Shown: piece by piece, positions 4,077-26,500 of the stretch | Position numbering within the stretch: position 1 is the stretch's first letter | Layout: each line of letters opens with the position of its first letter | From: a virus | IMG/VR virus record: IMGVR_UViG_3300009161_006369 | Coordinates: 1 to 26,500 of that record | Direction: 5' to 3' (one strand) | DNA length: 26,500 nt | Made by a program: the position numbers and the translations under genes | The notes under the pieces: model-generated | Seen by the model: only the letters and a program-made list of their open reading frames with translations | Told to the model about the DNA's origin: nothing | Databases searched by the model: none

Positions 4077-4164
4077 CAAAAAAAAGGTGAAAGCAAAATT
4101 TATCTGTAAAAAGACATTAGGTCTTTATGACTCGAAATATTATATTTGAATACAGGTGAAAGAT

Positions 4165-7554: not shown

Positions 7555-7750
7555 TTGATTTCTTTTGTGTATGTATTCTTTTTACACTTATCATTCTTTG
7601 CATTTTTGAGCATAAAAATTAGTGTTATTTCTATTTTTACAAGCTGAATGTATTTTATCAGGTATGAACACGATACATTCGAATTATAACAAGATAGTGG
7701 TTGATTTTGAGAGATTCTTTATTGTTGTTATGGTTTGTATAAATGTGTGT

Positions 7751-8728
7751 ATGAGAGAAGATAATTTTGTTTGTAGTGGTTGTGGTGTTAGCGGTTATAA
7801 AAGGCCGAGTGTGTTAAAAAAATTTAGGAATCATTTTTGTTCTAGAGATTGTAGTAGTAAACACAAGAATACTAATGTTGAAGTAAAGTGTTCTAGTTGT
7901 AATGTTTTGATTAAAAAAAAACAAAGTACATTAAATAAGAGTAAAAATCATTTTTGTTCTACAACTTGTTTTGGTAAGTTTAAAGAAAATAAAATCAAAT
8001 TAAATTGTTTGCAGTGTAATAATATTTTTTTAAGAGAGTTAAGTGCTATTAGATTAAATAATTTTTGTTCTTGTGATTGTGCTTATAAATACAGAAACAA
8101 AGCAATAACAATAAATTGTTCACAATGTAATAAAATATTTTTGAAAGCACCAAGCCAAATAAAAAATAAAAAGAATAATTTTTGTTCTGTAGAATGTCAA
8201 CATAAATTCGCAAATAAAAAGGTTCAAGTAAAATGTCTTGTTTGTGATGTTTTGTTTATGAAGTATTTATGTAATTCTATAAAAAACCCTAGACATTGTT
8301 GTTCAAAAGAATGTTATTATATTTTGATAAGAGAAAAAAAAGATTGGGGTAGTACGAGAAGCAAATTAGAAATTGCTATAGAGAATAAATTAAATCTGTT
8401 GTATGGTTTTGAGATTAGATACAACAAGACAGATATTGGTTATGAATTAGATATATATATTCCTGTATTGGATTTAGCAATAGAAATAAATGGAATATTT
8501 CATTATGAGGCAATCTTTGGTGAAAAAGAATTGTTAAGAAGACAAGAAATAGATAAAGAAAAAGTGGTGGAGTGTAGGGAGCTTGGGATTAAGTTATTTG
8601 TTATTGATGTAAGTAAAGATAAAAATAATAAGAAGGTTATGGCTCAAAGGATATTAGAGGTGGAGGGGATTGTTAGGGATAGGATTAGGGAATTGGGTTA
8701 TGTTGGTCAGATGGTTTTAGAAATTTAG
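7751..8728 (+). CDS. Five-zinc-ribbon, Vsr-like endonuclease
   Basis: Taken from ATG 7751 the protein has 325 residues. Five Cys4 modules, each CxxC then (F/C)CSxxC after about 17-19 residues, repeat at a 36-39 residue period (first cysteines C8, C47, C86, C123, C162). A nuclease core follows: YELDIYIPVLDLAIEINGIFHY (D234, E245, N247, H251), then EIDKEKVVECRELGIKLFVID. The core is closely similar to that of the nuclease at 4165-4782, which has two modules. The frame stays open upstream to 7622, but that N-terminus has no cysteine module and lies in AT-rich non-coding sequence; 7751 matches the paralogue's start best. No clear ribosome site, so the start is uncertain. Likely a homing or mobile endonuclease whose zinc ribbons read DNA (inference). 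Confidence 0.75.
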   Translation: MREDNFVCSGCGVSGYKRPSVLKKFRNHFCSRDCSSKHKNTNVEVKCSSCNVLIKKKQSTLNKSKNHFCSTTCFGKFKENKIKLNCLQCNNIFLRELSAIRLNNFCSCDCAYKYRNKAITINCSQCNKIFLKAPSQIKNKKNNFCSVECQHKFANKKVQVKCLVCDVLFMKYLCNSIKNPRHCCSKECYYILIREKKDWGSTRSKLEIAIENKLNLLYGFEIRYNKTDIGYELDIYIPVLDLAIEINGIFHYEAIFGEKELLRRQEIDKEKVVECRELGIKLFVIDVSKDKNNKKVMAQRILEVEGIVRDRIRELGYVGQMVLEI

Positions 8729-8819: not shown

Positions 8820-11030
8820 ATGTGGTATAGATTAGCTGTTGTTGCTAAATTGATCAACAATCTTTATCCTGATAGTTTTTGGGTTAATGAGAAAAAAGAG
8901 AATGAATCAGGTGAAATTGTTTTAATTCCTAGACAAATTTCTTATGGGGAAAAGATGGGTGTTTTAGGGTGGATGAAATTATTATCCACTGGTCCAAATA
9001 ATGTTAATGATGAAGACAGATTATTAGATTTTTTAAATAAAAGAATTAGTATTGATGATAGTGGCAGAAAAGTATATCAATCTGTCAATAGAAGTTTAGT
9101 ATTATTATCAAATCCTGTTGAGGGTGGATTTTATATTAAAGAAAAAGAAGAGAATGAGTCTGGCAAAACAATTTTAATTCCTAAGTTTATTCCTCGTGGT
9201 AAAGAGATGGGTGCTAAGGAGTGGAAAAAATTATTACAAACAGGCACTCAATTTACTGATCAGGAAAGTTTAAATAATTTTTTAGTAAGTGATAAATTTA
9301 AGTATGAGGGTAGGAAGAAATTTTATATTCCTGGTGTGATAGGTAGTCCAACATTATTAAGTAATCCTATTCTTGGTGGTTTTTGGGTTAATGAGAAAAA
9401 TAATAATGAATTAGGGGAAGTGGAAACAAAACCTAGATTTATTGCTTATGGGGAACGGATGAATATTAAGGATTGGCTTAAGTTATTAAGCACCCATAAA
9501 ATTAATGCCAAAGACAAGGATAGCTTAAAGAACTTTTTAACTAATGATAAATTTAAGTATATTGGTGAAAGAAAATTTTATCTTCCTAATTTATCTGGTC
9601 AAGCTATTCTAGTAAGAAATCCAATACCAGAAGGATTTTATATTGAGGGTGTAGGTTTTATAGAACCATCAGCGCAAATGAATGTTTCTGAGTGGGGTAG
9701 ATTATTAAAAACTGATGTGATTAAGCAGAAGAAAAAAAGTTTGGAAGAATTTTTAAGTGACAAATTAATTAGAAATCATGATGGTGATTTAGTATATACA
9801 TTTAATCCTCAGAACAGATCAATATTATTTCAAAATCCAATCTCAGAAGGATTTTATGTTGGTGGTGATTTTATTAGTCCTGATAGAAAAATGAGTACAG
9901 GGGATTGGAATAGATTATTAGGCACAGATAATATTGTGGGAAATGACAGAGATAGTTTAAGAAAATTTTTAAGTAGAGATGGAAAAATAACAATAGTTGA
10001 TGGTAAGAATATATATAATTCTTTTGAAAGGGTTAAATTATTAAGAAATCCTGTTGAGGGTGGTTTTTGGGTAGGTAATAGATTTATTGAGCCTAATGAA
10101 GAGATGGGTATTGTACATTGGATTAAATTATTAAACACTAGTGGCAATAATGTTAGAAGTCAAAGTAATTTAAATGATTTCCTTGGTGACAGAAGAAGAT
10201 TCCGCACTATAAAAAACAGAAAAACCTACATACCAGTTAAGAGATCTTTCAGAGAGGGTTTATTTGGAGAAAGATTTAACAACTACAATAATGATGGTAT
10301 ATCTGTAAAATCTGGTGAACCTATTAAGGTATTAACAAACAAAACCAATATTTTGTATTTGGATTATGCTTTTAAGAAAAATGGTAAGATATTATTAGCT
10401 GTTGAAATTAATGGAAATCAGCATTATGGTTTTGTATCATTTGGTAAGAAATTATCATATCAAGATTGGCAAAAAGGATTAGAGAGAGATATCTTAAAAA
10501 TCAATTATTGCCATAACAATAATATTCCATTGTTGATATTTAATCATATGTTATCGCTTAAAGATTTTAAGTCTATTGTAGAAAAATTATATGAAAATTC
10601 CCAAGCTTATGATCAATATATACCTCAGCCTGTAATTGACAATAATGTTACAAATACATCATTGGAATTTATTAAGCGACAAATTTATTCTCATTTATAT
10701 CCTGTGTTTAATAATTTAATATCTTTTGAAAATGAAATATCTAAGAAAAATTATATAAAAGATACATTGATATTAATTTCTAAGCTTATGGGTATTTATG
10801 AGGGTGGTATTGACAAGACAGATTATGTAAAATCATTTGATGTTAATGTAGATTTGACATCTAATTATAATATTTGTTTAGCAATATATAATTCATTATA
10901 TCCTAATTTTCCATTAGATCAGGATGAAAAGATTACATATTCAGATTTATCTAGTGAGCAAAAAATTTACAAAGAAAAAACATTACCTATAAAGCCAAAG
11001 ACAATTGAACAAAATCCCCTTAAAGTTTAG
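8820..11030 (+). CDS. Modular-repeat protein with Vsr-like PD-(D/E)xK nuclease core
   Basis: A 736-residue protein. Residues about 13-476 hold six tandem repeats of 68-85 residues. Repeats 2-6 start with NPxxxGF(Y/W) at 98, 182, 267, 339 and 410, then have a W-(K/R/M)-LL-xT segment, a SLxxFL segment and often GRKxY. At 510-575 there is a nuclease-like core: LYLDYAF (D515), AVEINGNQHY (E529, N531, H535) and LERDILKINYC (D557), then IPLLIF. This matches the ExNGxxHY core of the two zinc-ribbon nucleases in the window. Residues 600-736 are helical and unassigned. I know of no family for the repeat; a modular DNA-reading array feeding a cleavage domain is the simplest model. It has AGGG about 10 bases before the ATG and ends in a terminator. 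Confidence 0.7.
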   Translation: MWYRLAVVAKLINNLYPDSFWVNEKKENESGEIVLIPRQISYGEKMGVLGWMKLLSTGPNNVNDEDRLLDFLNKRISIDDSGRKVYQSVNRSLVLLSNPVEGGFYIKEKEENESGKTILIPKFIPRGKEMGAKEWKKLLQTGTQFTDQESLNNFLVSDKFKYEGRKKFYIPGVIGSPTLLSNPILGGFWVNEKNNNELGEVETKPRFIAYGERMNIKDWLKLLSTHKINAKDKDSLKNFLTNDKFKYIGERKFYLPNLSGQAILVRNPIPEGFYIEGVGFIEPSAQMNVSEWGRLLKTDVIKQKKKSLEEFLSDKLIRNHDGDLVYTFNPQNRSILFQNPISEGFYVGGDFISPDRKMSTGDWNRLLGTDNIVGNDRDSLRKFLSRDGKITIVDGKNIYNSFERVKLLRNPVEGGFWVGNRFIEPNEEMGIVHWIKLLNTSGNNVRSQSNLNDFLGDRRRFRTIKNRKTYIPVKRSFREGLFGERFNNYNNDGISVKSGEPIKVLTNKTNILYLDYAFKKNGKILLAVEINGNQHYGFVSFGKKLSYQDWQKGLERDILKINYCHNNNIPLLIFNHMLSLKDFKSIVEKLYENSQAYDQYIPQPVIDNNVTNTSLEFIKRQIYSHLYPVFNNLISFENEISKKNYIKDTLILISKLMGIYEGGIDKTDYVKSFDVNVDLTSNYNICLAIYNSLYPNFPLDQDEKITYSDLSSEQKIYKEKTLPIKPKTIEQNPLKV

Positions 11031-11040: not shown

Positions 11041-14000
11041 TTATTTTTGTTTTATTGAATATCTTAATGTTTTTCTATTTGCTGTGATTTCATTTTGTTC
11101 TTCTGGTTGTCTTGGTTGCGGTTCAGGTGTTGTAATAGGTTGTTTAAGCATTTCAAGAACATATGGATCAACATTAGGAACAATATTCACATAACCCCTG
11201 TATGCAGAAATTTTTCTTTGTATTAATTGATTTATTTCAGGTAGCATATTATTAAGTTGATTTTTAATTTTTTGTAAATAACGATCAGACAATAAATTAT
11301 TTAAAACAATATCTTTGAAATTTTCTTTTCTTCGGTAGGATTCTTTCAGATTAATTTCAAGATAACTAAAACTCAATATATCTTCAAGCATTTCCAGCAA
11401 AACTTTTTTATCATAAATTATCTCATTATCACTTGCCTCTGACAGATTTTCGATTTGTGATCGATTTAATGTAATAGATTCTTTAAATATAACCTTTATC
11501 TGTTGGATTGATTGTATATTTTTGAGTTTGTTTAATCCATAAAAATTTTGTTGATCCACTATCAAATTGATTATTGGAGCAAATGTTAAATTGTCTGCAA
11601 TATATAATATTTGATATAAAATTGAAATATATAATGTGTTTAGTTCTTGAGGAATTTTGTCTCCTGAACCAGATTTTGTAATCATTTTTTGAACATTATA
11701 ATCATTGATATCTAAATTACCAAAATTATTCGAAACACAAGCATGAGCAAGTGAACCTAATCTATAATTCGTTTCAGAATTAGATGGATACAAATTTATA
11801 TTATTTAATATTTTTGTTATCAATAGCTTTATTTTTTCACCATATTGCACTGAATCTTGATTTTGATTATAATTTTCAACATAATATCTAATAGAGTTTA
11901 TATAATCTGAAGTTGGTAAAAGAATTTCATCATCATCTAAGGGCATAAGATAATAATCAATAAAACCAGTTTCTATAGAATTAATTAAATTATTTTCGTC
12001 CCAAGATCTATTAAACATATTATCATTGACAAATTTTATATCATCATTTGATAGTTGATTCTTTTGAATATATTTTTTCAATAAAAAGCTGAAAAAATCA
12101 TAAGCAGATGAATTGTATTTTAAATCTTCTAAGTTGATTTTTTTGCCTAAGAAATCACTTATTGACGTAGTTTCTGTAATTAAGTTAGATAAATAATTTT
12201 TATCTTCATCATTCAAAGAATAAATTAAATCACTTGTTTCAAACTTAGACATTTTTTCTTCAAAATTTATGAATCCAAATATCTTTTGAGCATTGTAAAG
12301 TTTTGTGGGATAATTAAAGCTTTCAATTTTGGCTAAATCTCTTTTTAATTGTTGGATGTCACTCTCTTGATTCGAATCTTTCAAGTGATTCCCATCTCTC
12401 AGCCATTTGTTAAGCATTATTTGGAATTGTGTTTTATTTAAATTGACATCAAAATCTATTAAATCAGGTCTTTCCATCACTAAACATAAAACATAAAAAT
12501 CTTCGGGGAATGTAGGTTTGCCTAATTGATCATATAATTTCAGGAGATTATCTTTATTTATTACATCTTGTAATTCATTGATATATTTTTTGACCAATGA
12601 ATTACAAATATTATTTTTGATATTTTGATTATTAATTATTATTTTAATTTCATCATCATTGTAAGGTTTATTAAGATTGTTTTTAGTTGTATCAAACACT
12701 GATAAAATGGGATATTTATCAAATGATTCAGGTTTAGCAAATAAAACACTTCTTCCTCCAAGTGTGTCGTAAGTGTAAGTGTTTGGATCATTATTTTCAA
12801 ATATATTTAATGGAATAAATTTTTCAGCATCAGAAAATCGAGATGAAGTATTATTGCTTCCACACAACACTACATCAAAATATTTAGAGAAAATTTCATT
12901 ACAAGCTTTTTCATATATATCTTTAAAGTCTTGATGATTGAATGAAGAGTATTTAGATTCAATGCTGTCTAAAGATATTGTACTTTGGTTAATCCAAATA
13001 TAAGATTGAGCCACCAAATTATCTTTTTTATCTGTTATGATGAAAATACCTGAATCTGAACCAAATGTATTTAAAAAAGCTTTATTTCCAGCTCCTTTAA
13101 TTTTTTGGCAACATCCAGTAATAGCTCCAACGAAAGCAAACCTTGAATCATTTTTAGGCAGTACTCTTGCAATATAAGAATCATTTTCCACTCTTAATTT
13201 GCTTAGATTTACATACCATTCACTTTCTTCAGGTCTTTCATCCATAAGTTTTTGTACTTCAAGGAATGATTTTATATCATCTTCTTGATATTTGAGCATT
13301 GCCTGGAATAATCTTTCATTGGTAATATTTTCATATCCAATGTCTTCAGCAGCAACATCATTAGTGATAGTTTTACGCAATTTTTCAAGTGGCATATTAG
13401 ACATTTCTGAGACAAGTTTAAATTCTTCGCCTTGTATCCTGATCGGTCTATTCCAATTTGATATTACACTAGATAAATTTTTTCTCAGCTTGGTTGTAGC
13501 ATCTCTTATAAAATCGCTTTTTCTATAAAATTCATAACTTACTTTTACAATATCATCGGATGTCATAATTTCATTAGTGTATTTTTTATAATCTTCTTCA
13601 GATAAATTTAAATCTTTTCTTAGCTTGTTTTCTATTTCTCTTCTTAGATTGATATTAAAATAGTTTTTGATAATGAATTCAGTGATTTTGGGATCATATT
13701 CTATTTTGGATAAATTAATTGTGTTATCTACAATATGTGGAATATCTACTATAGAATTACCACTAGATTCTGTTTGGCATTTTTGAACAAATGGGATTGA
13801 ATGTTTGCCCAAGATATAATTGAGATGTAATGCTGAATCAAAATGTTCTTTGTCAAAAGAAAAATTTTCGCCTTCAGAATACATTAGATTTAAATAATCT
13901 TTTCTGTCTAGCAATAATGGTGGGAGATTGTCTATATTAAATAATTCAAGATATAAATCTAAAAGTAATGCTGGAGTTCTGAAACCCATTCTTCTATCAC

Positions 14001-14550
14001 CAGCAAAACCATATTTCTGATTTCTTGATTCTAAAAATTGCAATAATACATTTACCTTAGAATCAGGATTTCTTTCAATATCACTGGGAACATTTATAGC
14101 TGTTAAATTTCTATGTCCAGACTTTGCTTGATAAATTATTTCATTTTGATTTTGTACTGTTACCAAAGCTATGTCTGAGTTGATACCTTTTTCAGACAGT
14201 TTAATTAATAAATTACAAAATCTTAAGAAATTACTTTTTCTATCTTCTCTGCTAGGATCTCCAAAGTTAATATCATATGGAAATTCTAATGATTGGAAGA
14301 AAGCATAGATTTGTCCTTTGTTTGGTTCATCTTCAATAAATTCAGATAATTTAATTCTGTTAGATTCTCTGACAACATTTTTATTTTTATCAATTTTTTC
14401 TTGAAGTTCAGTGTTAGCTACTCTGTATATTTTGTGAGCTAACGAAAAATATTTGGAAGAAAGTTTATATAAATGTTGATTGTCAGCTATTTGCGATTTC
14501 TTGATAAATCCAAATGCGAGTTTTTTATAATTTACTAATCTTACTTTCAT
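11041..14550 (-). CDS. Giant protein of unknown function with central CCQ / SYxW / DSIE domain
   Basis: An 1169-residue protein with no signal peptide or membrane segment. Its one recognisable block is a central domain at about 455-570: RVLPKNDSRFAFVGAITGCC then Q482 (C480, C481), QSYIW (516-519 SYIW), LDSIES (528-531 DSIE) and CGSNN further on. The same block lies near the C-terminus of the three plus-strand giants. The other ~1050 residues are Asn/Lys/Leu-rich, mostly helical, not clearly alignable to them, and end in a Pro/Gln/Glu-rich tail (about 1140-1155). No ribosome site is evident before the ATG; a TATAAT box at 14594-14589 could drive it. Opposite orientation and distinct architecture suggest an old relative rather than a recent copy. 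Strand order of the domain resembles acetyltransferase folds only weakly; no function assigned. Confidence 0.85.
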   Translation of the reverse strand: MKVRLVNYKKLAFGFIKKSQIADNQHLYKLSSKYFSLAHKIYRVANTELQEKIDKNKNVVRESNRIKLSEFIEDEPNKGQIYAFFQSLEFPYDINFGDPSREDRKSNFLRFCNLLIKLSEKGINSDIALVTVQNQNEIIYQAKSGHRNLTAINVPSDIERNPDSKVNVLLQFLESRNQKYGFAGDRRMGFRTPALLLDLYLELFNIDNLPPLLLDRKDYLNLMYSEGENFSFDKEHFDSALHLNYILGKHSIPFVQKCQTESSGNSIVDIPHIVDNTINLSKIEYDPKITEFIIKNYFNINLRREIENKLRKDLNLSEEDYKKYTNEIMTSDDIVKVSYEFYRKSDFIRDATTKLRKNLSSVISNWNRPIRIQGEEFKLVSEMSNMPLEKLRKTITNDVAAEDIGYENITNERLFQAMLKYQEDDIKSFLEVQKLMDERPEESEWYVNLSKLRVENDSYIARVLPKNDSRFAFVGAITGCCQKIKGAGNKAFLNTFGSDSGIFIITDKKDNLVAQSYIWINQSTISLDSIESKYSSFNHQDFKDIYEKACNEIFSKYFDVVLCGSNNTSSRFSDAEKFIPLNIFENNDPNTYTYDTLGGRSVLFAKPESFDKYPILSVFDTTKNNLNKPYNDDEIKIIINNQNIKNNICNSLVKKYINELQDVINKDNLLKLYDQLGKPTFPEDFYVLCLVMERPDLIDFDVNLNKTQFQIMLNKWLRDGNHLKDSNQESDIQQLKRDLAKIESFNYPTKLYNAQKIFGFINFEEKMSKFETSDLIYSLNDEDKNYLSNLITETTSISDFLGKKINLEDLKYNSSAYDFFSFLLKKYIQKNQLSNDDIKFVNDNMFNRSWDENNLINSIETGFIDYYLMPLDDDEILLPTSDYINSIRYYVENYNQNQDSVQYGEKIKLLITKILNNINLYPSNSETNYRLGSLAHACVSNNFGNLDINDYNVQKMITKSGSGDKIPQELNTLYISILYQILYIADNLTFAPIINLIVDQQNFYGLNKLKNIQSIQQIKVIFKESITLNRSQIENLSEASDNEIIYDKKVLLEMLEDILSFSYLEINLKESYRRKENFKDIVLNNLLSDRYLQKIKNQLNNMLPEINQLIQRKISAYRGYVNIVPNVDPYVLEMLKQPITTPEPQPRQPEEQNEITANRKTLRYSIKQK

Positions 14551-14579
14551 ATTAAAAAATTTCTGTGTTAAATGTATTT

Positions 14580-14610
14580 ACCCCTAGCATTATAAAGTTT
14601 TGTAGGGGAT
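14580..14610. other. Hairpin in the divergent gap between giant genes
   Basis: CCCCTA (14581-14586) pairs with TAGGGG (14603-14608) around a 16-nt loop that holds a minus-strand TATAAT (14594-14589). It resembles the terminators used elsewhere but lies upstream of both divergent genes, so it is more likely a regulatory structure or operator than a terminator. Confidence 0.4.
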
Positions 14611-14613
14611 TAT

Positions 14614-14643
14614 TTGTTATCTATGGGATTTAACATTTATAAT
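14614..14643 (+). promoter_or_regulatory. Candidate promoter TTGTTA-18-TATAAT for the giant-gene series
   Basis: TTGTTA (14614-14619), an 18-base spacer and a perfect TATAAT (14638-14643) precede the ATG at 14661 by 17 bases, with AGG in between as a ribosome site. Probably drives all three plus-strand giant genes, which are separated by only 33-34 bases. Confidence 0.5.
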
Positions 14644-14660
14644 CTTTATTAGGTATAAGA

Positions 14661-17600
14661 ATGAAAAGATATTCAGCAACATCAAAAAAAGCTCAACAAT
14701 GGATTAGAGAAGCAAGTAAAGACAATCTTTTTTTATGCTCAATTTATGATGAATTAGGGCATTTCAAGCAATCAGAGAGTATTTATGAATCTACAATCAA
14801 AATAGCACGATTTATAAGGGTTTCTGAAGATATTTTAGAAACGCCTGAAAACGAAGATGAAGAGGATGTTGATGTTCTTGTAATTGATGATGTTAACACA
14901 GGCAGATATGATTATGGCGATGTAAGTAGAATATCTGACCATGGTAATGTTGATATTGCGGATGAAACAAGTGCTAGTAAACAGCATATTAATGAATTTA
15001 TTCGTGCTTTATCAATGGGTGGTTCTAATGTCAGAAAGAGCTTGGAGCATTTAAGTCTTGCTGTTAGTAGATGGAGTAATCCTAATTTATTTAAAAGTTC
15101 TATCTTGTTGGCATTAAGTTATTATTATAAGAATCCTTTAATTGCTTCTGATGTATCTGTTTTTGTAGGTAATCAAAAATTATTAGCAGATGATATTGTT
15201 AATGGTGATATTGATCAAGACACTGTGGCATTGTTAGCTGAATTTCACAATAAAGGTGTTGAGAAGAGAAATAATTTTAATAGTGTGTATCAGCAAGTAA
15301 ATGAATTGCTTAAAACACACAGACCAGAATTGGCAAACAATGATCATATTATTAAGTTTATCTTATCAAGTTATAATGATCTTGGTTCCGAACTAACTCC
15401 CTATCAAATTAAGAATGTCATAAAAGATACAAACCTATTAGATGCTAATGCAGTGGATAGAGCTTTAATGTATGTAGAAGCAGCTAAATCCAAAAATCTT
15501 CCAAAATCTTCAAGTTTTAGTTATTCTTTGCTTAGAAGTATGATATTCTTTTTCTCAAAATATCCACAAGAAACTGTATTTAAAAGGGTGATAGCTTTAT
15601 TAGACACTGACAGAAGTTTATACGAATATACTCTTGGATTTTCTGGTTACAATTACTTAGAGACATTATTATTTGGCAGAGAAAATGCTATAAGTCAAGT
15701 AGAAATGAAATTATATCCTGAAATAGTGGATGGTTTTTTACAATCCCCTCTTCCACCTTACAATAGTGGATTAGGTCATTATGATCAACGAAGAATAGCA
15801 ATCCAATATATAAATCCTTTATTAATAGCCAAAGCTCCAATGAATAAATATGGAACAGATAACCAAGCTTTAGGCTTTGAATATTTTGCTGACAAAATGG
15901 AAGCATTTAATTATATGTCAGAAACTTATCCTGATGTTAAAAATTATCTTTGGTTAGCTGCTGGACATCAAATGATTCAAATGGATGGAGTAAATGGTAA
16001 AAAAGCATTTGAAAAGATGAGTCAGATTTGGCGAAGCAATCACAATATAATTTTAAGTCATTTTACGCCATCTTTAATGCCTGTTTACATCAAATATTTT
16101 TCTAATTACAAAAAAGATTTCACATTAAGTTCAGTTTTCGCTCCATTTAATACATGTTATTTGTACATTGGTGAAAAGATATACGATTATTCGCTAGCAG
16201 AAGTAAAACGTATATCTGAACAATTTGATTTATCCACTGGATTGCCTGATGATAATAAACTTACAATAGAACAATATGAAGTGGTCAAGCAACATTCAGG
16301 AAAATATCTTGATGGTAGACTAACTGGTTTATCAAATTTTAAATATGAGCAAAATATTATAGATATTTATTTTAGTTTTCCATTTGCTTATCAAATTCCA
16401 ATTGAAACTCTTGATAATTTTTATGAATTTGTCAAACATAATTATTCTGAAACGTTTAATATGGGAAGTTGTGTTAAAAACTTATTTATTTTAGGAAGAT
16501 TCGACACAGATTTATTTAAAGATGTTGCTGATTTATATATAGAAAGTATAAATGATCAAAACAAAGATTATTTATTAAGATTAATAACAGAGAAGAATAA
16601 ATCTGAAGTTCCATTTATTGGAAATTATGATTCATTAAAAGGTTTAGGTGATGTTGGTGGAAAATATCCAGATTTAACAAGTACTGAATTATATGCATGT
16701 CTGGGCAAACCTGAAGATGCATATAAAATAAGAGAAGCAATAGCAAAAAGTAAAAATTATTCTCAAATCATACCTCATAGTGAAGAATATAATAAGTTGT
16801 TTATTTTATTTGCTCAAAACTATAACATTCGTGGCAGAGATCCATCTATGTTAATAAGTTTAGTGGATTCTGTAATTCATGTAAATACTCCAAACAGAAC
16901 ATTTCAACAGTTCCATTATTTATCAGCTGCTATTGGTACATTTGATTTTAGCAATGTAAGTAGAAGAGCTTCTGATGCTTTGACCACTGTTAATTTTAGA
17001 AGTGAAACTAATGATATGTTCATTGGTGATATGTTCATAAGAGAATCTGGTATGAAAGCTGAACCCATCATCAATATTGGTGGTTTTGATGTTCTTTTTG
17101 AAATGACAGAACAAGAAATAAAAGAATGGTTGGAAAGCTTAAGGTTTAGAAATCCAGATAAATTTTTAAATGTATGGGTGGCTTATCGCCCTTATATAAA
17201 TAAATTCAATACATTAGCATTAAAATTAGATCGTAATATATTATATAACAAAATTTTATTTGATTTCTATAAAAAATTTTTTGATGGGATAAGATCTTTA
17301 AAACCCGATATATTTGATGATTTAGGTCCCGGATCAAGTTTTGAGAAAATTGTTACAGGTGATGTTTTTAGAAATTCAATTTATGAACATAAACAATATA
17401 TAAGAGCCAATTTAAGTGGTGGGTCAGAATGTGATGAAGAGCTTTCGAGGGTTTACAAACTTAATGTAAGATTACCTAAAAAAGTAATGTTACCTAAACA
17501 AGATTTAAGAACAATGATGACATCTTTTGGTGACAAAGAATCATTATCTAACATTGGTAAAATAGTTCAAATATTTGGAAATATAACATCTCAAATATTA

Positions 17601-18638
17601 GATGCTTATTCTTTTGATTTGTGTAGGAAAAATGGATATCCCACCAAAGGATTCGATTCTATTCCTGATCTACAATTGAAAGGCAACATAATCCACGATT
17701 TTGCTAATTTATTACCTACAAATTTAAATCAAAAATTTAATGGTTACGCTCAATATTTCTTAACTAATTTCCCTGATGATAAAAAGGGTGATTTGAGATT
17801 GGTGGGTGATGCTTGGAATTCTAGAATTTCTTTGTGGGATGATGATGATAATGTATTAGAAGAAGGCTTGGTATATGAATTTTCTGCTAAATATAATGTT
17901 TCAGATTTATCCCAGATTATTAAACACAACAGTTTTAGACAAGTAATGAAAGATTTGCCTGTTGAAAGTAAAGCATTCGCATATCAATTCTGTGATATTA
18001 GAGGATTACCAACAGAAGCAGACAATCAATCAGGAAGATATAAGAAATTATTTGCTGGTACTCAACAGGTATTTCTTGATGGATTGAAAGTAAAGTTACC
18101 TGATTGGGCATCTTTCACTGGCAAATCTGGAGACTTAACATTAAGATTTTTGAGAAGAGATGAACCACAAGGAATGTTCTTGGGCAGATTGTCAAAATGT
18201 TGTCAAGAACCTGAAAACTGGGCAGCTTCTTGTGCTTATGATGGACATTTGAATCCTAATGCTGCTTTTGCTGTATTTGAAGGACCCGAAGGATTAGTAT
18301 TTCAATCTTACGTTTGGGCAGACGAAGATGGTAATGTTTGTTTTGACAGCATCGAAAGTCCTATGTATGATTTCAGATCCAAATATAAAAATGATGGTCA
18401 ACAGCTTATGGAGGATTTTGCTGATTCATTGCCATCTGGAAAAATATGTACAGTGGGAAACAATTCATTTAGTTTCAATTCAGCAAACAAAAAACTATCC
18501 AATCCAACAGAGACAAATAAAATTCTATATGTAGCTCAATTATTATATGATTTTTGCCCAGCTAACTCTAGTTCTTTGTATACAGCAGATTCACAATCTC
18601 AATATAGTGTTGGTGTAGGTAAAAAAGAATCCAGCTGA
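14661..18638 (+). CDS. Giant paralogue A (1325 aa), C-terminal CCQ domain
   Basis: A 1325-residue protein, first of three consecutive paralogues. A helical N-terminus (about residues 27-52: IYDELGHFKQSESIYESTIK) is shared by all three, as are an FIRALSMGGSNVRKSL block and a YYYKNPL block in the first 180 residues. The long helical middle is less conserved. At the C-terminus are LPDWASF, then LRFLRRDEPQGMFLG, CCQ (1180-1182), an AASCAYDG ... NAAF segment, SYVW (1216-1219) and DSIE (1229-1232), then a helix and a GNNSF segment. No signal peptide or membrane span. Length and clustering would suit virion or injected proteins, and the conserved C-terminal polar and cysteine residues suggest an enzymatic or ligand-binding domain; both are inference. 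AGG ribosome site before the ATG. Confidence 0.9.
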   Translation: MKRYSATSKKAQQWIREASKDNLFLCSIYDELGHFKQSESIYESTIKIARFIRVSEDILETPENEDEEDVDVLVIDDVNTGRYDYGDVSRISDHGNVDIADETSASKQHINEFIRALSMGGSNVRKSLEHLSLAVSRWSNPNLFKSSILLALSYYYKNPLIASDVSVFVGNQKLLADDIVNGDIDQDTVALLAEFHNKGVEKRNNFNSVYQQVNELLKTHRPELANNDHIIKFILSSYNDLGSELTPYQIKNVIKDTNLLDANAVDRALMYVEAAKSKNLPKSSSFSYSLLRSMIFFFSKYPQETVFKRVIALLDTDRSLYEYTLGFSGYNYLETLLFGRENAISQVEMKLYPEIVDGFLQSPLPPYNSGLGHYDQRRIAIQYINPLLIAKAPMNKYGTDNQALGFEYFADKMEAFNYMSETYPDVKNYLWLAAGHQMIQMDGVNGKKAFEKMSQIWRSNHNIILSHFTPSLMPVYIKYFSNYKKDFTLSSVFAPFNTCYLYIGEKIYDYSLAEVKRISEQFDLSTGLPDDNKLTIEQYEVVKQHSGKYLDGRLTGLSNFKYEQNIIDIYFSFPFAYQIPIETLDNFYEFVKHNYSETFNMGSCVKNLFILGRFDTDLFKDVADLYIESINDQNKDYLLRLITEKNKSEVPFIGNYDSLKGLGDVGGKYPDLTSTELYACLGKPEDAYKIREAIAKSKNYSQIIPHSEEYNKLFILFAQNYNIRGRDPSMLISLVDSVIHVNTPNRTFQQFHYLSAAIGTFDFSNVSRRASDALTTVNFRSETNDMFIGDMFIRESGMKAEPIINIGGFDVLFEMTEQEIKEWLESLRFRNPDKFLNVWVAYRPYINKFNTLALKLDRNILYNKILFDFYKKFFDGIRSLKPDIFDDLGPGSSFEKIVTGDVFRNSIYEHKQYIRANLSGGSECDEELSRVYKLNVRLPKKVMLPKQDLRTMMTSFGDKESLSNIGKIVQIFGNITSQILDAYSFDLCRKNGYPTKGFDSIPDLQLKGNIIHDFANLLPTNLNQKFNGYAQYFLTNFPDDKKGDLRLVGDAWNSRISLWDDDDNVLEEGLVYEFSAKYNVSDLSQIIKHNSFRQVMKDLPVESKAFAYQFCDIRGLPTEADNQSGRYKKLFAGTQQVFLDGLKVKLPDWASFTGKSGDLTLRFLRRDEPQGMFLGRLSKCCQEPENWAASCAYDGHLNPNAAFAVFEGPEGLVFQSYVWADEDGNVCFDSIESPMYDFRSKYKNDGQQLMEDFADSLPSGKICTVGNNSFSFNSANKKLSNPTETNKILYVAQLLYDFCPANSSSLYTADSQSQYSVGVGKKESS

Positions 18639-18672
18639 CAAAATTAATGTAGAAAATAATCAGGAATCTAAT

Positions 18673-21600
18673 ATGCTCAAGTTTTCATCTATTCAAAAAA
18701 TCTCATCAAAAAAATGGCTGACAAGAGAATCAAAAAAATATATTAAAGTGGCTTCTTTTTATGACAGATTGAATAACTTCGATGAGTCTGATTCTGTCTA
18801 TGCTAATGCTATTTCAATGTTAAGATTAGCACAAGAACAAGAAGATGATAAAGAGCCTGATGTAGAATATCAAACTGAAGATATTGATCCTAATCCTTTA
18901 AATTCTGAATCTCCTGTTAATTTGGATTTTAAGGATAGATTTGGGTTACCTGGATATAGTGAAGATGAAGTGTTTAGCGGTTATGGTATGGGTTTGGATC
19001 CCACTTCTAAATACAATACACAATACAACACCAGACAACATGATGTCTTTGGGTTTTATTTGCCTATGATTTCTGGAAAAAAAGATTTAATTAATTCTTT
19101 CATTCAATCATTGTCTGTTGGTGGCAATAATATATTAGTTTCATTAAAATCTTTAGCTGAAAATTACAAAGATATATATAAAGACTCTAGTAGCAGTAAT
19201 AATATTAAAAATGCTTTAGGTACTGCCCTTGCTTATTATTACAAAAATCCATTATTTGTAAGATATGAATTGATTCTTGGTTCTTCATACTATATATTTG
19301 AAAACAATTTAAGAGATGGCGCTTCTGGTGTTGATGCCACTACCGTAAAGTTCATAAAAGATATCAATGATCAAAAACAACAAAGATCTGAAGCTTACAA
19401 TGATTATTTAAATACAATCAAAGAATTAATGACTCAATACAATATTCCACAAGATGTTGATGTAGTTAATTATTTTTATCGTGTTTATTTTGGTAATAGA
19501 TATAATATTGATCTCTTGAAACAAACAATGAGCACGTTTAAATATGATGAATTTAGATTTGCTGCGAGTATCACTTTAGGATCACAAAACGAATTTTTCA
19601 AAAATTTAAATGTAGTTGACATTATGGGAATTGATTATGTAAAGAAATTTATGGAAATACGTGGATTAAGTCATCTCACTGAATTTTATTTCAAATCTTT
19701 GGTAAAATTTAAAAGTGCCGGATTTGATTTCAACAAAAAATCATTATTAAATCAAAAATTAATTTTACCTTATATTGAAAAAATTTCAGATTTGCTAATA
19801 GATTTTGATGTCGAAGATTCAAAATCATTAACCAAATATGACGTATTATGCATAAAAGAATCATTTACACCAGAAGAATTTGCTCAAAAAGTGAAAGATG
19901 GTGTGATTGTTCTTGGTGGAAGAAACGGAGGCACTAGTTTACCATATGTGTCCGCTCTTCAAATCAAATCAAAAATCAGTGCAGAAGATTTGGAATATTT
20001 AGAGGCAAATAATAAAACTTTTAATCTAGAAAGAGAAGTGGTAGTTTTAAAACTTCTTGCTGAAAGAGGTAAAGAAATTGTTCCTTTTTTAGTGAAGAAT
20101 TGGCCTAGATTCAAATTTATTGACTCTGATAAAGAAGCACCATTATTTAATTTAAATGTGTATTTCGATTATGTTGTCAAATATGAAGATCAAATGAATG
20201 AGCTTTATGGCTGTCGTCACTTAAATAAAATGTATTCCATCATAGGTAATGACATTTTGAAATATAGACCAGCTGAAATTATCTTAATGACAGAGTATAG
20301 AAATGAATCTGGTGATTTTTTCGGTGGTCATTTTCCTATCACTCCTGAAATAATTGATAAATATGCTGAAAAAGCTGATATGGATTTTTTATCAAAAAAG
20401 CCAGAATATGGATATGAAATCACAATCAGCAAAGAGCAAACTGAACAAGTTAATCAATTTATAGAAGATCAATTTGGGAAAGCTTATGTAGATAATAGGA
20501 AAGTAAATTATATATTATTTTGTCTTGGAAAAATAGATTTCAATTTACTGGCTAATATTGGAAGTTTTTTATACAAAACACGACAAGGTATTCCGTATTT
20601 ATTCAAAGATAGATTAAAGTCTATTTCAGATAAAGGATTCTTTATTGGTGATATTAATAGATGTGGTGGTTTAGTAAATTCATCTGGCGACATTCATAAA
20701 GATTCTGTAGCTTCTGTTTCTAAATATTCCACAATAGAAGAATTTGATCAAGAATATGAAAAAGTTAGATATAGTATAGAAAGAACCTCATTATATCAAA
20801 ACATTAAACCAGGTACACCAGAATATGAAAAAATATTCTTGACTTTAATGTTAAATTTCAGAAGTAGAAATCGCAATCCTAATTTGATGATTAGATTGTT
20901 TGATGATATTTTGGATTCTACAATTTATAATACAAGAGATGCTGAAACTTGTAAAGCAGCACAACTTTTGGCTGGAAATGATTTGACATCTTTCACTCCT
21001 AGAATGGTGGCTAAATATAGTGCTATAAGCTCAGTAGTAGGATCAGTGATTGAAAATAAATTCCTGAAAGAATATCAAGATTTTGTTAATTTATTAAATT
21101 ACAATTCATTATATGAGCTTGAGCCTGAAAAAATTCAAGAATATATTAATGATGGTAAAATTACAGAAGAAGAAATCAACAATCTTTTTCCTAAATATTT
21201 TTCTTTAGATAGTATCTTGACCAAAAATTTGGATGAATATAACAACATAAAGAGAAAATTTATTAAATATTATATTGATAATTATTTTGATAAATCATTA
21301 TTATCTGATGTTGATGAAGGACTTAATTTGGAGTCTGTATATAAATCAATTATTGAAAAAGATTTAAGCAAAGAAGAGTTTGAATCCATATTGCGAAAAT
21401 TATTTAACAGCCAAGAATATCATATACCATTAAAATATCCATCTTACATACTTTCTGGAACTACAATGTATTTAAATGATTATGAAAATAAAGTTTTAGA
21501 AAATGTACGCAACGCTTCTGTTATAATACAGATCTTTAGCAAATTGGCAGAACCTATGTTAGATATGTATTCAAAAAAACAATATGGTATGCCTTATGCT

Positions 21601-22587
21601 AATTTATCCCCAAATAAAAAAAAATCAGCTATTCATGATTTAGCAAACACATTGCCAGATAATACGAATCAAGAAATGGTTGGCTTTGGTGAATACTTTA
21701 TCAACAACTATAGTCAAGCAAATAAAATAAAACTTAAATTAATTGGCAATATGTGGTCATCGTATATAAATATTTATGACGAGAATAAACAAATAGCAGG
21801 AGAACATTTAGTTAAAGAACTCTCTAAACAGATGAGTATGGAAGATTTATTCAAGAAAATAAAATTATCTTCTATGGCAGAGCTTATTGAAGATGTCAAA
21901 CCAAAAAATGATGACTTTTTGTTAGAGTTTGTCAATCATTATGGAGCTGGTTCTGATAAAGAATATTCTTCCGAACAACAAAAAATTATATATTCAGCTA
22001 CAGAACAAATTTATATTGAAAGTTTATCAGTGCCTTTGCCTGATTGGGCTTCTTTTGATAAGACCATACAAAAAAATAAAAAAGATAAAATTAGATTAAG
22101 GTTTTTATCAAGAGAAGATGCAAGAGGAATGTTCATTGGTCAATATGCTGAATGTTGCCAACATCCAACAAGCCATGCCGCTTCTTGTTCTTTTGATGGC
22201 CAGTCTAATCCTAATTCAGCTTTTATGTCCATAGAATTGAATGATGAATGGATAGGAGCTGGATATGTTTGGACAAATGAAGAGGGCGGACTTTGTATTG
22301 ACAGTATCGAGACAATAGGTAATGAATTGTTTCACTCAACAACAAATAAAGAGCTGTTTAAAAAATTATTAATAGATTTCTCAAACAGTTTAGGCGATAG
22401 AACTCTTTCTATGGGCTATGGTAAAGTTAATTTTGATAAATTTGACAAAGATGATGATCCATTACAAAATAATGATGAGTCTGTGATAAAAAAATATAAA
22501 GATTATCTTATAGATTTTACTCCAGGAAACACAGATGAAATGTATACAGATGCTAATGCACAAAGAATAGTACCTAAGAATCTATAA
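18673..22587 (+). CDS. Giant paralogue B (1304 aa), C-terminal CCQ domain
   Basis: A 1304-residue protein, second of the series, 34 bases after paralogue A with AGGA as ribosome site. It aligns over its length: N-terminal FYDRLNNFDESDSVYANAI, INSFIQSLSVGGNNILVSL, YYYKNPL, a middle FRSRNRNPNLMIRLFDDIL block (A has YNIRGRDPSMLISLVDSVI), IHDLANTLPDNTNQ (A has IHDFANLLPTNLNQ), then LPDWASF, LRFLSREDARGMFIG, CCQ (1161-1163), AASCSFDG ... NSAF, GYVW (1197-1200) and DSIE (1210-1213). The first position of the YxW motif is Gly here and Ser in the others, so that serine is not strictly required. It shares a poorly conserved acidic segment after the N-terminal helix. Function unknown. Confidence 0.9.
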   Translation: MLKFSSIQKISSKKWLTRESKKYIKVASFYDRLNNFDESDSVYANAISMLRLAQEQEDDKEPDVEYQTEDIDPNPLNSESPVNLDFKDRFGLPGYSEDEVFSGYGMGLDPTSKYNTQYNTRQHDVFGFYLPMISGKKDLINSFIQSLSVGGNNILVSLKSLAENYKDIYKDSSSSNNIKNALGTALAYYYKNPLFVRYELILGSSYYIFENNLRDGASGVDATTVKFIKDINDQKQQRSEAYNDYLNTIKELMTQYNIPQDVDVVNYFYRVYFGNRYNIDLLKQTMSTFKYDEFRFAASITLGSQNEFFKNLNVVDIMGIDYVKKFMEIRGLSHLTEFYFKSLVKFKSAGFDFNKKSLLNQKLILPYIEKISDLLIDFDVEDSKSLTKYDVLCIKESFTPEEFAQKVKDGVIVLGGRNGGTSLPYVSALQIKSKISAEDLEYLEANNKTFNLEREVVVLKLLAERGKEIVPFLVKNWPRFKFIDSDKEAPLFNLNVYFDYVVKYEDQMNELYGCRHLNKMYSIIGNDILKYRPAEIILMTEYRNESGDFFGGHFPITPEIIDKYAEKADMDFLSKKPEYGYEITISKEQTEQVNQFIEDQFGKAYVDNRKVNYILFCLGKIDFNLLANIGSFLYKTRQGIPYLFKDRLKSISDKGFFIGDINRCGGLVNSSGDIHKDSVASVSKYSTIEEFDQEYEKVRYSIERTSLYQNIKPGTPEYEKIFLTLMLNFRSRNRNPNLMIRLFDDILDSTIYNTRDAETCKAAQLLAGNDLTSFTPRMVAKYSAISSVVGSVIENKFLKEYQDFVNLLNYNSLYELEPEKIQEYINDGKITEEEINNLFPKYFSLDSILTKNLDEYNNIKRKFIKYYIDNYFDKSLLSDVDEGLNLESVYKSIIEKDLSKEEFESILRKLFNSQEYHIPLKYPSYILSGTTMYLNDYENKVLENVRNASVIIQIFSKLAEPMLDMYSKKQYGMPYANLSPNKKKSAIHDLANTLPDNTNQEMVGFGEYFINNYSQANKIKLKLIGNMWSSYINIYDENKQIAGEHLVKELSKQMSMEDLFKKIKLSSMAELIEDVKPKNDDFLLEFVNHYGAGSDKEYSSEQQKIIYSATEQIYIESLSVPLPDWASFDKTIQKNKKDKIRLRFLSREDARGMFIGQYAECCQHPTSHAASCSFDGQSNPNSAFMSIELNDEWIGAGYVWTNEEGGLCIDSIETIGNELFHSTTNKELFKKLLIDFSNSLGDRTLSMGYGKVNFDKFDKDDDPLQNNDESVIKKYKDYLIDFTPGNTDEMYTDANAQRIVPKNL

Positions 22588-22620
22588 TAAATAATGTAGA
22601 ATATATCCATTAGGTATCTT

Positions 22621-25600
22621 ATGAAAAAGTTTGCATCAATCAATAAAATATCCAGTCAGTTATTTTTAACTAAACGTGCTCAAACCTTCCTCAAAATGGC
22701 CTCAATTTATGATGAATTTGGCGATTATAAGATGGCAGAAGCTATACAGGCTGAAGCATTCAAATATTCAAAATATATCAAAATTGCTCAAGATTTATCA
22801 GATGACGAAGTTTCTGATCTTAATGATACTGCTGATGTAAATGAAGATATTGAAAACATTCCTTTAGAGAACACTAGGGACTTCGTAGATAGTCTAGCTC
22901 ATCCTGAATTAAGACATCCAGTTCTTAATTCTATTCCACTTGAATTTAAACTTGGAAAAGATCATGGATACTTAACTGGAAGTGATCTAGGATTACATCA
23001 TGGAGCAGTAACATATATTGAAAAAATAAATGGTTTCAATGATGTGGTGAAACTGTTGCTTTCTTGGTTATCTGCTGGTGGAAATAATATTCATAAAAGT
23101 TTAGTTTCTGTTTCTGTAAATTATAGAAATTTGAAAGCTGAATTAAATACTTTAGACTTTACCACAACAGATGAAACAAAAAGATATATTAATATAATAT
23201 TAGATGATAACACCTCATTTAACAAATCGCTTGGAACAGCTTTGGCTGCGTATTACAAAAACTCTAACTTTTTATTTTCTAATTTTTTCCAATTGATAAA
23301 AAATATCCGAGAAGGTAACATAGATGCTCAAAATGTAGCAACAATCAAACAACTTATCGAAAATGGCAAACAAGATATAGATTTTTCTATAAAAAGAAAA
23401 AATGAAGTTATTGAAGCTTTACCTGAATTACCTTCCAATCCTGAACTAGCTGATAAAGTAGTGTTTTATTTATATAAAAAATTAATAAAGCGTGAAACAA
23501 CATTAGAAGACATATCAAAAACAGACATCAAAAAACTTTCATTAGCAATTTTATATGGAAATAATGAATATGAACAAATTAAAGCAAAATATGAAATCAT
23601 AAATTATTTGCCAGAAAACTTGATTATGACAGTTATTGATAAGCCTGTAAGTCATTTAGATAGATCAATGTCAGATTCAATAAATAAAATTACAGGTTTT
23701 CAAACTGAGGTTGATTATAAAAGTCCTGTTTTTAAGTTTTTGTATGATTATTTAGCAGTACATCCTCAAGTTGGAAAAAAATTCAGAGATACAGGTCTCC
23801 CAGTCAAAGTAAGATACAATGAATTATTGTATGTTCTCAAATTTATTCCTCCAGATCAAGTTGATGCTTATTTAAATAATGAATTTCCAACCCAAAGACA
23901 AGATAGATTTGTATCATTAGGTAACTTTTTATTTGAACAAGGTCAGTTACCTGATTATGAATCTGTATGTACAGAGATAGAAACATTGACAGGTTCTAGG
24001 GATGTCTGGAAAAATTTGAATTATTATATTCTTTACAAAACTGATAAAGACAAAGCACTTACAGTTTTTAAGAATTTTATTGACAGATATCATCGCACAT
24101 CTGCCATAACTGAGGTCAATCTAACAATAGTTAATCCTAATGTATATTTAGATTATTTGATTAGTAATATTCAGTCAAATGATATTGTATCAAAAACAGA
24201 AGAGTTAAATGTTGCTTTTACTAAATTGGGTGATGAACTTTTTAAATATCCACCTATATTGGTTAATGAAATATGTAATAATATATCTAAAACTTATAAT
24301 TATGATGATCCTAGAGTTTTTGAGCTTCCATCAAAGATTTTAACATACAATCCTGATTTTACATCATTTTCCGAAGATGAGCAAAAAAGCGCACTTAGAT
24401 TTTTCAGATCTAATGAACATTTTGTAGAAATACCATATAGAAAAATATTGAACTTTAAGAAGTTCGCTGATATTGCTGATTCAGAAACTGCTGCTAATCA
24501 CATATTAATGTTTGGTGAACTAAGTCCTGAATGGGTAAAAAGAACTCCTAGAAACACGGGATTAAAAACTCCTCCAGAATTAATAAAACATATTGGTAAG
24601 CAAATATTAGATAATGGTTTTTTCATTGGTTCAATTGATACAGCTTTTGGTTTATTTGATAGAAATAATGTCGCAGAAGATCAAAAAAACAGACCAATAC
24701 AAGAATTGATTATAGCAAGAACTAATGCCAGAAGTTCTAATCAAGATGAATTAAGTGAAAAGTTGTTGATAATAGATCAAGTTAAAGAATCTATTAAAAA
24801 AGCAGCTGAAATCAATCCTGAATATAAAGCATTAGTTCCAGGATCAAGAGATTATTATTATATTGTTAGTTATTTATCTCATAATTATTCTGTGCGTGGG
24901 CAAAGTATTCAAAACTTTTTAAAACTCAGAGATTTGAGATTGAAAGCCAGAATCGCCGATAGATTTTCAATAAATTATGACAAAGATACTTCTGATATTG
25001 TAAAAACTGTAATAAGTGAAACTGGGCTGGAACCTACATCGACAAATTACAAAAAAGTTTTCAACATTTATGAACAAGTTAATAAAGCAACAATGTTTGT
25101 TTATAGTTATATTTCAAATAATGTTAAAATAGCTGCTATAATACAGATTCTTAGTGGAAATGATGATCGACATAATAATTATGGAGAACTTTTAAAAGAA
25201 TATGCTGGCAATTCAGATCTTAAAGAATATCAAATAGTTTATGATTTGGATTTTATTATAACAGATGAAGATCGAAATTTTTATGATGGGCATTATGATG
25301 CCATAGATCCATACTATAATAATATTGCCAATACAGTGTCTATTTTTGGAAGATTATTGCCTATTGTTTTAGATAAATTTGTTCAAACATACTTAAGAAT
25401 GCCGAATGTCAAAAGTATAAATGATATCCCTCTCAATAGAGTAAAAGATGTGTGTGATAAATTTTTTGAAAACCTGCCAACAAAAAGTCAAGATTATAGA
25501 GGCTTCGGTCAGTTTTTCATTCAAAGATTTAAGAGAATTAGTGACCTTGGAGAAATTAGAAAAATTGGCGAAGATTGGAATGCAACATTAAAAATATTTG

Positions 25601-26500
25601 ATGAAAACAATCGTGTAGTTGGAACCGAAGTTTTGAGAGACATTGCCTTAAAGCACTCAATGGAAGAACTTTCATTTATGCTTCAGATGACTTTCTTTAG
25701 TGAAATTTATGAAGATTATGAAGATGCCAATAAAGATTTTGTGAGAGTGTTTTGTAAATATGATTCAGATTTTGAAGATGCTAAAAAATATGAACACAAT
25801 AGAGATAATACAAAATATCCACTAAGAGAAAAAATTTATTTGGACAGTTTAAATGTCCCTCTTCCATCGTGGGCCAGTTATCGAAAAACAATACAAAAAC
25901 CGAATTCCAAATCAAAAATTACTTTGAGGTTTTTACCAAGAAGTGATGCCAGAGGATTATACCTTGGAATTATTGCTAGTTGTTGTCAGCATTTAGATGG
26001 ACAAGCTGCATGTTGTGCTATTGATGGCCAAATAAGCCCAAAGGCTGCGTTTATGATTTTTGAGTTAGATGGCCAATGGATTGGTGAGAGCTATACCTGG
26101 GAAGATAACAATGGTAATATTTGTATAGATAGCTTTGAAACTATTGGAGATGACGCTTATCACTCAGAAACAAATAAACAAATAATAAAAGAGTTATTAA
26201 TTGATTTTGCTCAATCAAGTTCCAATGACAATATTATAACTATGGGAAATAATAGATTTGATTTTGATCGAAGTCCATTAAATTTAATAAATCCCACTAA
26301 AAGTTATTTTGATTATAAAGATACCCTAAAGTATACATCATTATATAGAGATGACCATAGTAGTCAGAGTGTCATTATTGATTCCCGGATAAATCCTATA
26401 AGCCATGAGGAATATAGTAGAAACAATCCTGTTCATTATGATGGAAGTTTATGTCCAATATGCGGTGAGATGTCTTTAGATGATGATGGATATTGTGCTC
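22621..26500 (+). CDS. Giant paralogue C (partial, at least 1293 aa), CCQ domain plus zinc ribbon
   Basis: An open frame from ATG 22621 runs off the right edge with no stop that I found. The start has AGG ten bases upstream and lies 33 bases after paralogue B. It carries the shared N-terminus (MASIYDEFGDYKMAEAIQ), WLSAGGNNIHKSL, LAAYYKNSNF, LPSWASY, LRFLPRSDARGLYLG, CCQ (1121-1123), AACCAIDG ... KAAF, SYTW (1157-1160) and DSFE (1170-1173). Unlike A and B it continues into CPIC (C1278, C1281) then GYC (C1292), the start of a Cys4 zinc ribbon whose last ligand would be beyond the window. Function unknown; a DNA-, RNA- or protein-binding tail specific to this copy is plausible. Confidence 0.88.
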   Translation, partial: MKKFASINKISSQLFLTKRAQTFLKMASIYDEFGDYKMAEAIQAEAFKYSKYIKIAQDLSDDEVSDLNDTADVNEDIENIPLENTRDFVDSLAHPELRHPVLNSIPLEFKLGKDHGYLTGSDLGLHHGAVTYIEKINGFNDVVKLLLSWLSAGGNNIHKSLVSVSVNYRNLKAELNTLDFTTTDETKRYINIILDDNTSFNKSLGTALAAYYKNSNFLFSNFFQLIKNIREGNIDAQNVATIKQLIENGKQDIDFSIKRKNEVIEALPELPSNPELADKVVFYLYKKLIKRETTLEDISKTDIKKLSLAILYGNNEYEQIKAKYEIINYLPENLIMTVIDKPVSHLDRSMSDSINKITGFQTEVDYKSPVFKFLYDYLAVHPQVGKKFRDTGLPVKVRYNELLYVLKFIPPDQVDAYLNNEFPTQRQDRFVSLGNFLFEQGQLPDYESVCTEIETLTGSRDVWKNLNYYILYKTDKDKALTVFKNFIDRYHRTSAITEVNLTIVNPNVYLDYLISNIQSNDIVSKTEELNVAFTKLGDELFKYPPILVNEICNNISKTYNYDDPRVFELPSKILTYNPDFTSFSEDEQKSALRFFRSNEHFVEIPYRKILNFKKFADIADSETAANHILMFGELSPEWVKRTPRNTGLKTPPELIKHIGKQILDNGFFIGSIDTAFGLFDRNNVAEDQKNRPIQELIIARTNARSSNQDELSEKLLIIDQVKESIKKAAEINPEYKALVPGSRDYYYIVSYLSHNYSVRGQSIQNFLKLRDLRLKARIADRFSINYDKDTSDIVKTVISETGLEPTSTNYKKVFNIYEQVNKATMFVYSYISNNVKIAAIIQILSGNDDRHNNYGELLKEYAGNSDLKEYQIVYDLDFIITDEDRNFYDGHYDAIDPYYNNIANTVSIFGRLLPIVLDKFVQTYLRMPNVKSINDIPLNRVKDVCDKFFENLPTKSQDYRGFGQFFIQRFKRISDLGEIRKIGEDWNATLKIFDENNRVVGTEVLRDIALKHSMEELSFMLQMTFFSEIYEDYEDANKDFVRVFCKYDSDFEDAKKYEHNRDNTKYPLREKIYLDSLNVPLPSWASYRKTIQKPNSKSKITLRFLPRSDARGLYLGIIASCCQHLDGQAACCAIDGQISPKAAFMIFELDGQWIGESYTWEDNNGNICIDSFETIGDDAYHSETNKQIIKELLIDFAQSSSNDNIITMGNNRFDFDRSPLNLINPTKSYFDYKDTLKYTSLYRDDHSSQSVIIDSRINPISHEEYSRNNPVHYDGSLCPICGEMSLDDDGYCA

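Follow-up and report, generated by a model that had tools for sequence, protein, structure and literature searches.

The four giant proteins encoded in the window, that is, in the complete 26.5-kb virus record IMGVR_UViG_3300009161_006369 taken at its full length, were found to share a domain of about 190 residues, called here the CCQ domain after its Cys-Cys-Gln motif, which is predicted with high confidence to have the fold of the GNAT superfamily. Its predicted acetyltransferase-like fold, the different set of key residues and its recurrence in phages and bacteria together suggest that the CCQ family may represent a new type of enzyme that modifies proteins. The same record also encodes tRNAs, a UvdE endonuclease, a radical-SAM protein and an Ogg-type glycosylase. 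The features considered below are the following:

11041..14550, minus strand: protein A, 1169 aa, CCQ domain internal
14661..18638, plus strand: protein B, 1325 aa, CCQ domain C-terminal
18673..22587, plus strand: protein C, 1304 aa, CCQ domain C-terminal
22621..26499, plus strand: protein D, at least 1293 aa, CCQ domain C-terminal
12730..13272, minus strand: CCQ domain of A, CCQ codons 13105-13113 (BLASTP to B, C and D; alignments)
18048..18635, plus strand: CCQ domain of B, CCQ codons 18198-18206 (alignment; GNAT-fold model)
21979..22584, plus strand: CCQ domain of C, CCQ codons 22153-22161 (BLASTP; alignment)
25807..26451, plus strand: CCQ domain of D, CCQ codons 25981-25989 (alignment; GNAT-fold model)
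13273..13878, minus strand: helical module upstream of the CCQ domain of A, divergent (alignment of 21 proteins)
17493..18047, plus strand: helical module upstream of the CCQ domain of B (alignment of 21 proteins)
21430..21978, plus strand: helical module upstream of the CCQ domain of C (alignment of 21 proteins)
25258..25806, plus strand: helical module upstream of the CCQ domain of D (alignment of 21 proteins; mostly helical in the model)
14712..14828, plus strand: N-terminal helical-hairpin leader of B (profile search)
18727..18843, plus strand: N-terminal helical-hairpin leader of C (profile search)
22672..22788, plus strand: N-terminal helical-hairpin leader of D (profile search)

The frame of protein D is still open at the contig end, so the protein is incomplete and its length a minimum. 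The CCQ motif occurred once per giant, at residues 480 (A), 1180 (B), 1161 (C) and 1121 (D). Proteins B, C and D behaved as tandem paralogues along much of their length (BLASTP E values of 4e-69 for B-C, 1e-45 for B-D and 2e-66 for C-D), and protein A scored significantly against them in the domain region only, with domain-level E values of 8.9e-9 (A-D), 4.7e-8 (A-B) and 1.1e-6 (A-C). These values excluded chance similarity of the four copies. Common ancestry of the CCQ copies of A to D, and of the relatives described below, is shown at the level of sequence. A first-pass annotation of the window had proposed a domain common to the four giants, internal in one and C-terminal in the other three, and both points were borne out.

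According to the alignment and the model of the B domain, the domain begins with strand 1 (R-x-L-x-R-x-D), helix 1, the G-x4-C-C-Q motif and helix 2. Next come strand 2 (F-x-V), strand 3 ((A)-Q-S-(Y/W)-x-W) and strand 4, ending in D-(S/N)-(I)-E, and then helix 3, strand 5 with a final Gly and a variable tail with Y-x-D. In a 20-row alignment (A5) a Gly, the second Cys, the Gln, a Trp, an Asp, a Glu and a further Gly were invariant. When a distant bacterial branch was added, in which the Gln is replaced by Thr or Ile, three positions remained so: the second Cys, the final Glu of DS(I/F)E and the Gly that precedes the Cys pair by five residues. Among 26 members, the Cys pair was present in 25, the Asp of D-x-x-E in 25 and the Glu in all 26; the protein of a 379-kb phage (L016) has Ser in place of the first Cys. 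Over all members, the motif described earlier was thus strictest at this Gly, at the second Cys and at the DS(I/F)E Glu, whereas its first Cys and its Gln were not universal. The paired cysteines and invariant acidic residues, which had been read as a hint of catalysis or of metal/ligand binding, come down to one near-invariant Cys, Asp and Glu each, for which such a role would be putative. The homologous unit reached some 180 residues further upstream than first described, into a helical module with the pattern FG...W...HD...LP...FL...W, which could be aligned in most of 21 proteins, A to D included, and whose alignment was weak in A and in the Bacilli rows. Domain and module lie together towards the C terminus in most of the large proteins, phage or bacterial, that have the domain.

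Profile searches revealed no Pfam, NCBIfam or PHROGs family covering the CCQ domain, nor was any significant sequence match to it present in the PDB, so that its initial description as unassigned was confirmed. The remaining weak library matches (E > 0.002), whose families differed between members, were taken as chance, and no paper naming the domain was found in the open-licence PMC literature. A role in a known defence system was also considered and dropped, as for 6 proteins PADLOC yielded nothing convincing, the best match having an E of 0.0048 across 50 residues.

Relatives were found in phages and in cellular genomes. A tblastn search of 50,697 phage records with the B domain recovered MaMV-DH01 and the Microcystis phage MaMV-DC in three records, at 1e-13 and with 43% identity along half of the query (another three matches, at E 5-9, were disregarded), and MaMV-DC ORF68L (697 aa) and its MaMV-DH01 homologue, both annotated as hypothetical, are thus family members in isolated phages. 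ORF68L is shorter than the window giants and the hairpin leader was not seen in it by eye. An alignment-driven scan of IMG/VR yielded 11 relatives among 20 pattern matches, two of them on contigs of 300 and 379 kb; the sole match of the first single-protein viral scan (L008) proved to be a peptide-pattern match inside a DNA-polymerase-like ORF and was dropped. Among bacterial and archaeal assemblies (genome_contigs), 17 of 40 pattern matches were relatives, a lower bound since that scan used two short peptide patterns. Their labels were Obscuribacterales/Cyanobacteria, Chloroflexi, alphaproteobacterial and Bacilli/Clostridia, plus one Methanobrevibacter (contig L034), the last probably a binning error because its protein is nearly identical to that of Bacilli. 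Searching 72,556 plasmids with the MaMV-DC domain gave no match. Draws of genomes from two phyla were positive in 5 of 292 and 4 of 295 cases, centre genomes counted, and several genomes carried more than one CCQ copy. In one Obscuribacterales-type genome (L059, G005 contig C42) the domain lies within an open frame of 7394 residues.

The distant branch, from the cyanobacterial phylum and mostly with CCT instead of CCQ, joined the family with a profile probability of 98.3% and a score of 95.2, against a maximum of 17.8 in 30 shuffled-column controls. In a 30-row tree, B, C and D of the window formed a group (support 95/92) with proteins from the 379-kb and 300-kb phages, and elsewhere viral and cellular rows were interleaved; A, L020 and L060 formed long branches of unsure placement, and the L093 row is a mis-cut piece. 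Not all cellular copies lie in prophages, since one (L029) sits among ORFs that by eye are of a chromosomal housekeeping type.

Structure prediction, put forward from the outset as a check on the C-terminal domain of the 1325-residue protein B, was performed with AlphaFold on a 19-row alignment and gave a model (model 1) with pLDDT 82 and pTM 0.83. Its matches in the PDB were of GNAT type, with a best Foldseek E of 0.016 and Z up to 7.2, a value of about 7 being in the range reached by models without a clear match. All of the best 50 PDB matches listed bore acetyl- or acyltransferase names apart from bh2621 (2qml) and Rv1347c (1yk3), which we take to be GNAT-type as well. Model 2, built for the D domain plus its upstream module (pLDDT 76, pTM 0.72), matched GCN5 with E 6.5e-4, the best of both models, and the SidF transacylase with Z 9.8 and 4.2 Angstrom over 161 residues, in a comparison that barely tests the upstream helical module; its best 50 PDB matches listed are presumably all GNAT-type. 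TM-scores were modest, about 0.2-0.55, and the C-terminal part of both models was of low confidence. Whereas model 1 by itself would be weak evidence, model 2 raised the support for a GNAT fold, and the two are not fully independent because most alignment rows are common to both. On these two models and fold searches, a GNAT fold for the CCQ domain is predicted as very probable, and the acetyltransferase resemblance noted at first sight was right at the level of the predicted fold.

The CCQ family resembles the GNAT superfamily (GCN5, EryM, SidF, RimI-type) in predicted fold and in the order of strands and helices, but differs from it in having no Pfam GNAT match and no motif A loop, and in its own Cys and D-x-x-E signature. 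Motif A, [RQ]xxGx[GA], is the GNAT signature for the CoA pyrophosphate, and it was found in none of the 26 members. In the B model, the conserved Cys sits in the stretch joining helix 1 to helix 2 and the D-x-x-E closes strand 4, positions that in GNATs presumably flank the active cleft. For MYST acetyltransferases a pair of Cys and Glu has been put forward, which makes thioester chemistry a possible, putative route here. In the reading that we rank first, the family would be a new, divergent GNAT-fold transferase acting on proteins: an acyl-type group would be transferred to a protein, the conserved Glu/Asp that ends strand 4 would serve as the base, and the Cys between the first two helices would position the substrate or form a thioester. 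As the usual CoA pyrophosphate loop is missing, the donor would be held differently, or another donor would be used. In phages the domain would probably modify a host or phage protein during infection, and it would form the end of a long helical protein with a targeting or virion role. For this statement as a whole we consider the chances about even.

The absence of motif A and the lack of any GNAT profile match, in the four window giants as in 19 members, speak against this reading. They would suit a GNAT fold reused without catalysis, as a binding or scaffold module ending large helical proteins, with the conserved residues serving folding or ligand binding. The attachment of the same helical module in most of the 21 proteins fits this second-ranked explanation too. 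Near-invariant Cys, Asp and Glu residues across very distant members would, however, be unusual for a mere scaffold. Moreover, effector enzymes are often fused to ankyrin repeats, and two of the alphaproteobacterial proteins scanned (L030 and L031) carry such repeats fused to the CCQ domain, a comparison that speaks against a non-catalytic role. The wide, patchy spread and the ankyrin fusion make the domain look like an effector-type catalytic module and not like a structural part, and we regard non-catalytic reuse as a rather doubtful alternative to the divergent transferase. A cysteine peptidase, a transglutaminase-like domain or a metal-binding domain built around the Cys pair and the acidic residues would account for a conserved Cys near helix 2 and for the conserved Asp and Glu, but no conserved His was present in the alignment of members, the first Cys is not universal and the fold searches list GNAT-type structures; peptidase and transglutaminase were rejected on the missing His and the fold matches, and this whole group of explanations is very improbable.

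A kinship with PcfJ (PF14284) had also been suggested in the first-pass annotation. PcfJ proteins are likewise encoded by phages and plasmids, and by eye they share the order of elements and a Cys motif after the first helix, so that the CCQ family could be conceived as a divergent PcfJ branch in which the motif between helices 1 and 2 reads CCQ instead of HCV. PcfJ-named proteins appeared at ranks 10 and 39 among the best 50 matches listed in a viral fold search, both weak (E 0.03 and 0.13), and the 379-kb phage has a PcfJ gene adjoining its CCQ gene. The sequences themselves told otherwise: the profile-profile comparison, run against PcfJ, gave a probability of 0.2% and a score of 12.0, below the shuffled maximum given above, the distant CCT branch reached 0.3%, and the PcfJ profile matched neither the window giants, nor 19 members, nor anything in the window record. 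PcfJ was present in 1 of 7 phage records searched, and co-occurrence as a rule was dropped. Membership in PcfJ was therefore rejected as unsupported by the sequence profiles, and we hold a divergent branch of it to be quite unlikely. Only slightly less unlikely is a broader proposal, that a GNAT-fold family without the CoA loop, with its own Cys and D-x-x-E site and housed in large phage, giant bacterial and ankyrin proteins, is distantly linked through its fold to the PcfJ proteins of phages and conjugative plasmids in one widespread class of mobile-element protein modifiers. In the 379-kb phage, the PcfJ-family gene (L016, 8444-9676, minus strand, E 1.4e-14) and the CCQ gene are arranged tail to tail, and a second PcfJ match occurs elsewhere in that genome.

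In Iyer et al. 2017 (PMC5512222), the GNATs of 'polyvalent' proteins are placed with RimI-like GNATs. They are comparable to the CCQ domain as GNAT modules inside very large phage or mobile-element proteins, and differ from it in being RimI-like, whereas CCQ members match no GNAT profile; the four window giants have no significant Pfam domain, polyvalent anchor domains included. PMC5512222 and PMC7824862 suggest that GNATs of large phage proteins modify host proteins, which fits a protein-modifying role of the CCQ domain without proving it. The MaMV-DH01 paper (PMC9927357) states that mass spectrometry is still needed for the structural proteins of that phage. For a domain that the libraries do not name, the present analysis gives a fold, a set of conserved residues and easily obtained members, such as the MaMV-DC ORF and bacterial chromosomal genes; if the domain is an enzyme, its use several times per large-phage genome would point to a so far unrecognised means by which host or virion proteins are modified.

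An aldehyde-dehydrogenase-like gene directly followed the CCQ gene at 8 of 17 searched cellular loci, counting that of the query; all 8 were of Bacilli/Clostridia type (e.g. L039, 9058-10092), and the assignment is borderline, with 22.0 bits against a Pfam cut-off of 23 and no obvious catalytic Cys by eye. At another locus (L036, 2061-4169) a HopA1-family protein is encoded upstream of the CCQ gene.

Proteins B, C and D and the protein of the 379-kb phage start with a short helical hairpin, L..A..LD..G...AD.I...L..(K/R)hAQ. A first test with a regular expression gave a weak result, with matches in 5 of 339 N-termini and in 8 of 1244 internal windows; the [KR]hAQ end was found within the first 50 residues in 12 of 339 ORFs, and further in, in 3 of 339, 3 of 245 and 1 of 193. 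A 9-row leader profile detected 13 of the 888 stop-to-stop ORFs of the 379-kb phage at E <= 1e-3, six of them training rows, and the leader-bearing ORFs of that phage (L096-L114) were otherwise different in sequence. Among 330 ORFs from ten cellular loci the profile matched none, and likewise none of the 26 ORFs of L017. Our guess is that the hairpin could act as a signal for packaging or processing. A second recurrent start, MWYK/R-x-A, was observed in the window (8820) and in two large phages (L016 and L017, L096-L114), on ORFs otherwise different. The 736-aa ORF of the window that bears it (8820-11030) contains about six W-x-(K/R)-L-L-x-T repeats and a homing-endonuclease-like end (PHROG 9084, 4.8e-7). 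Further upstream, in the ORFs at 4156-4782 and 7622-8728, repeated Cys-rich, zinc-finger-like units with a similar C-terminal part (SKLE...E.NG..HYE) were recognized by eye.
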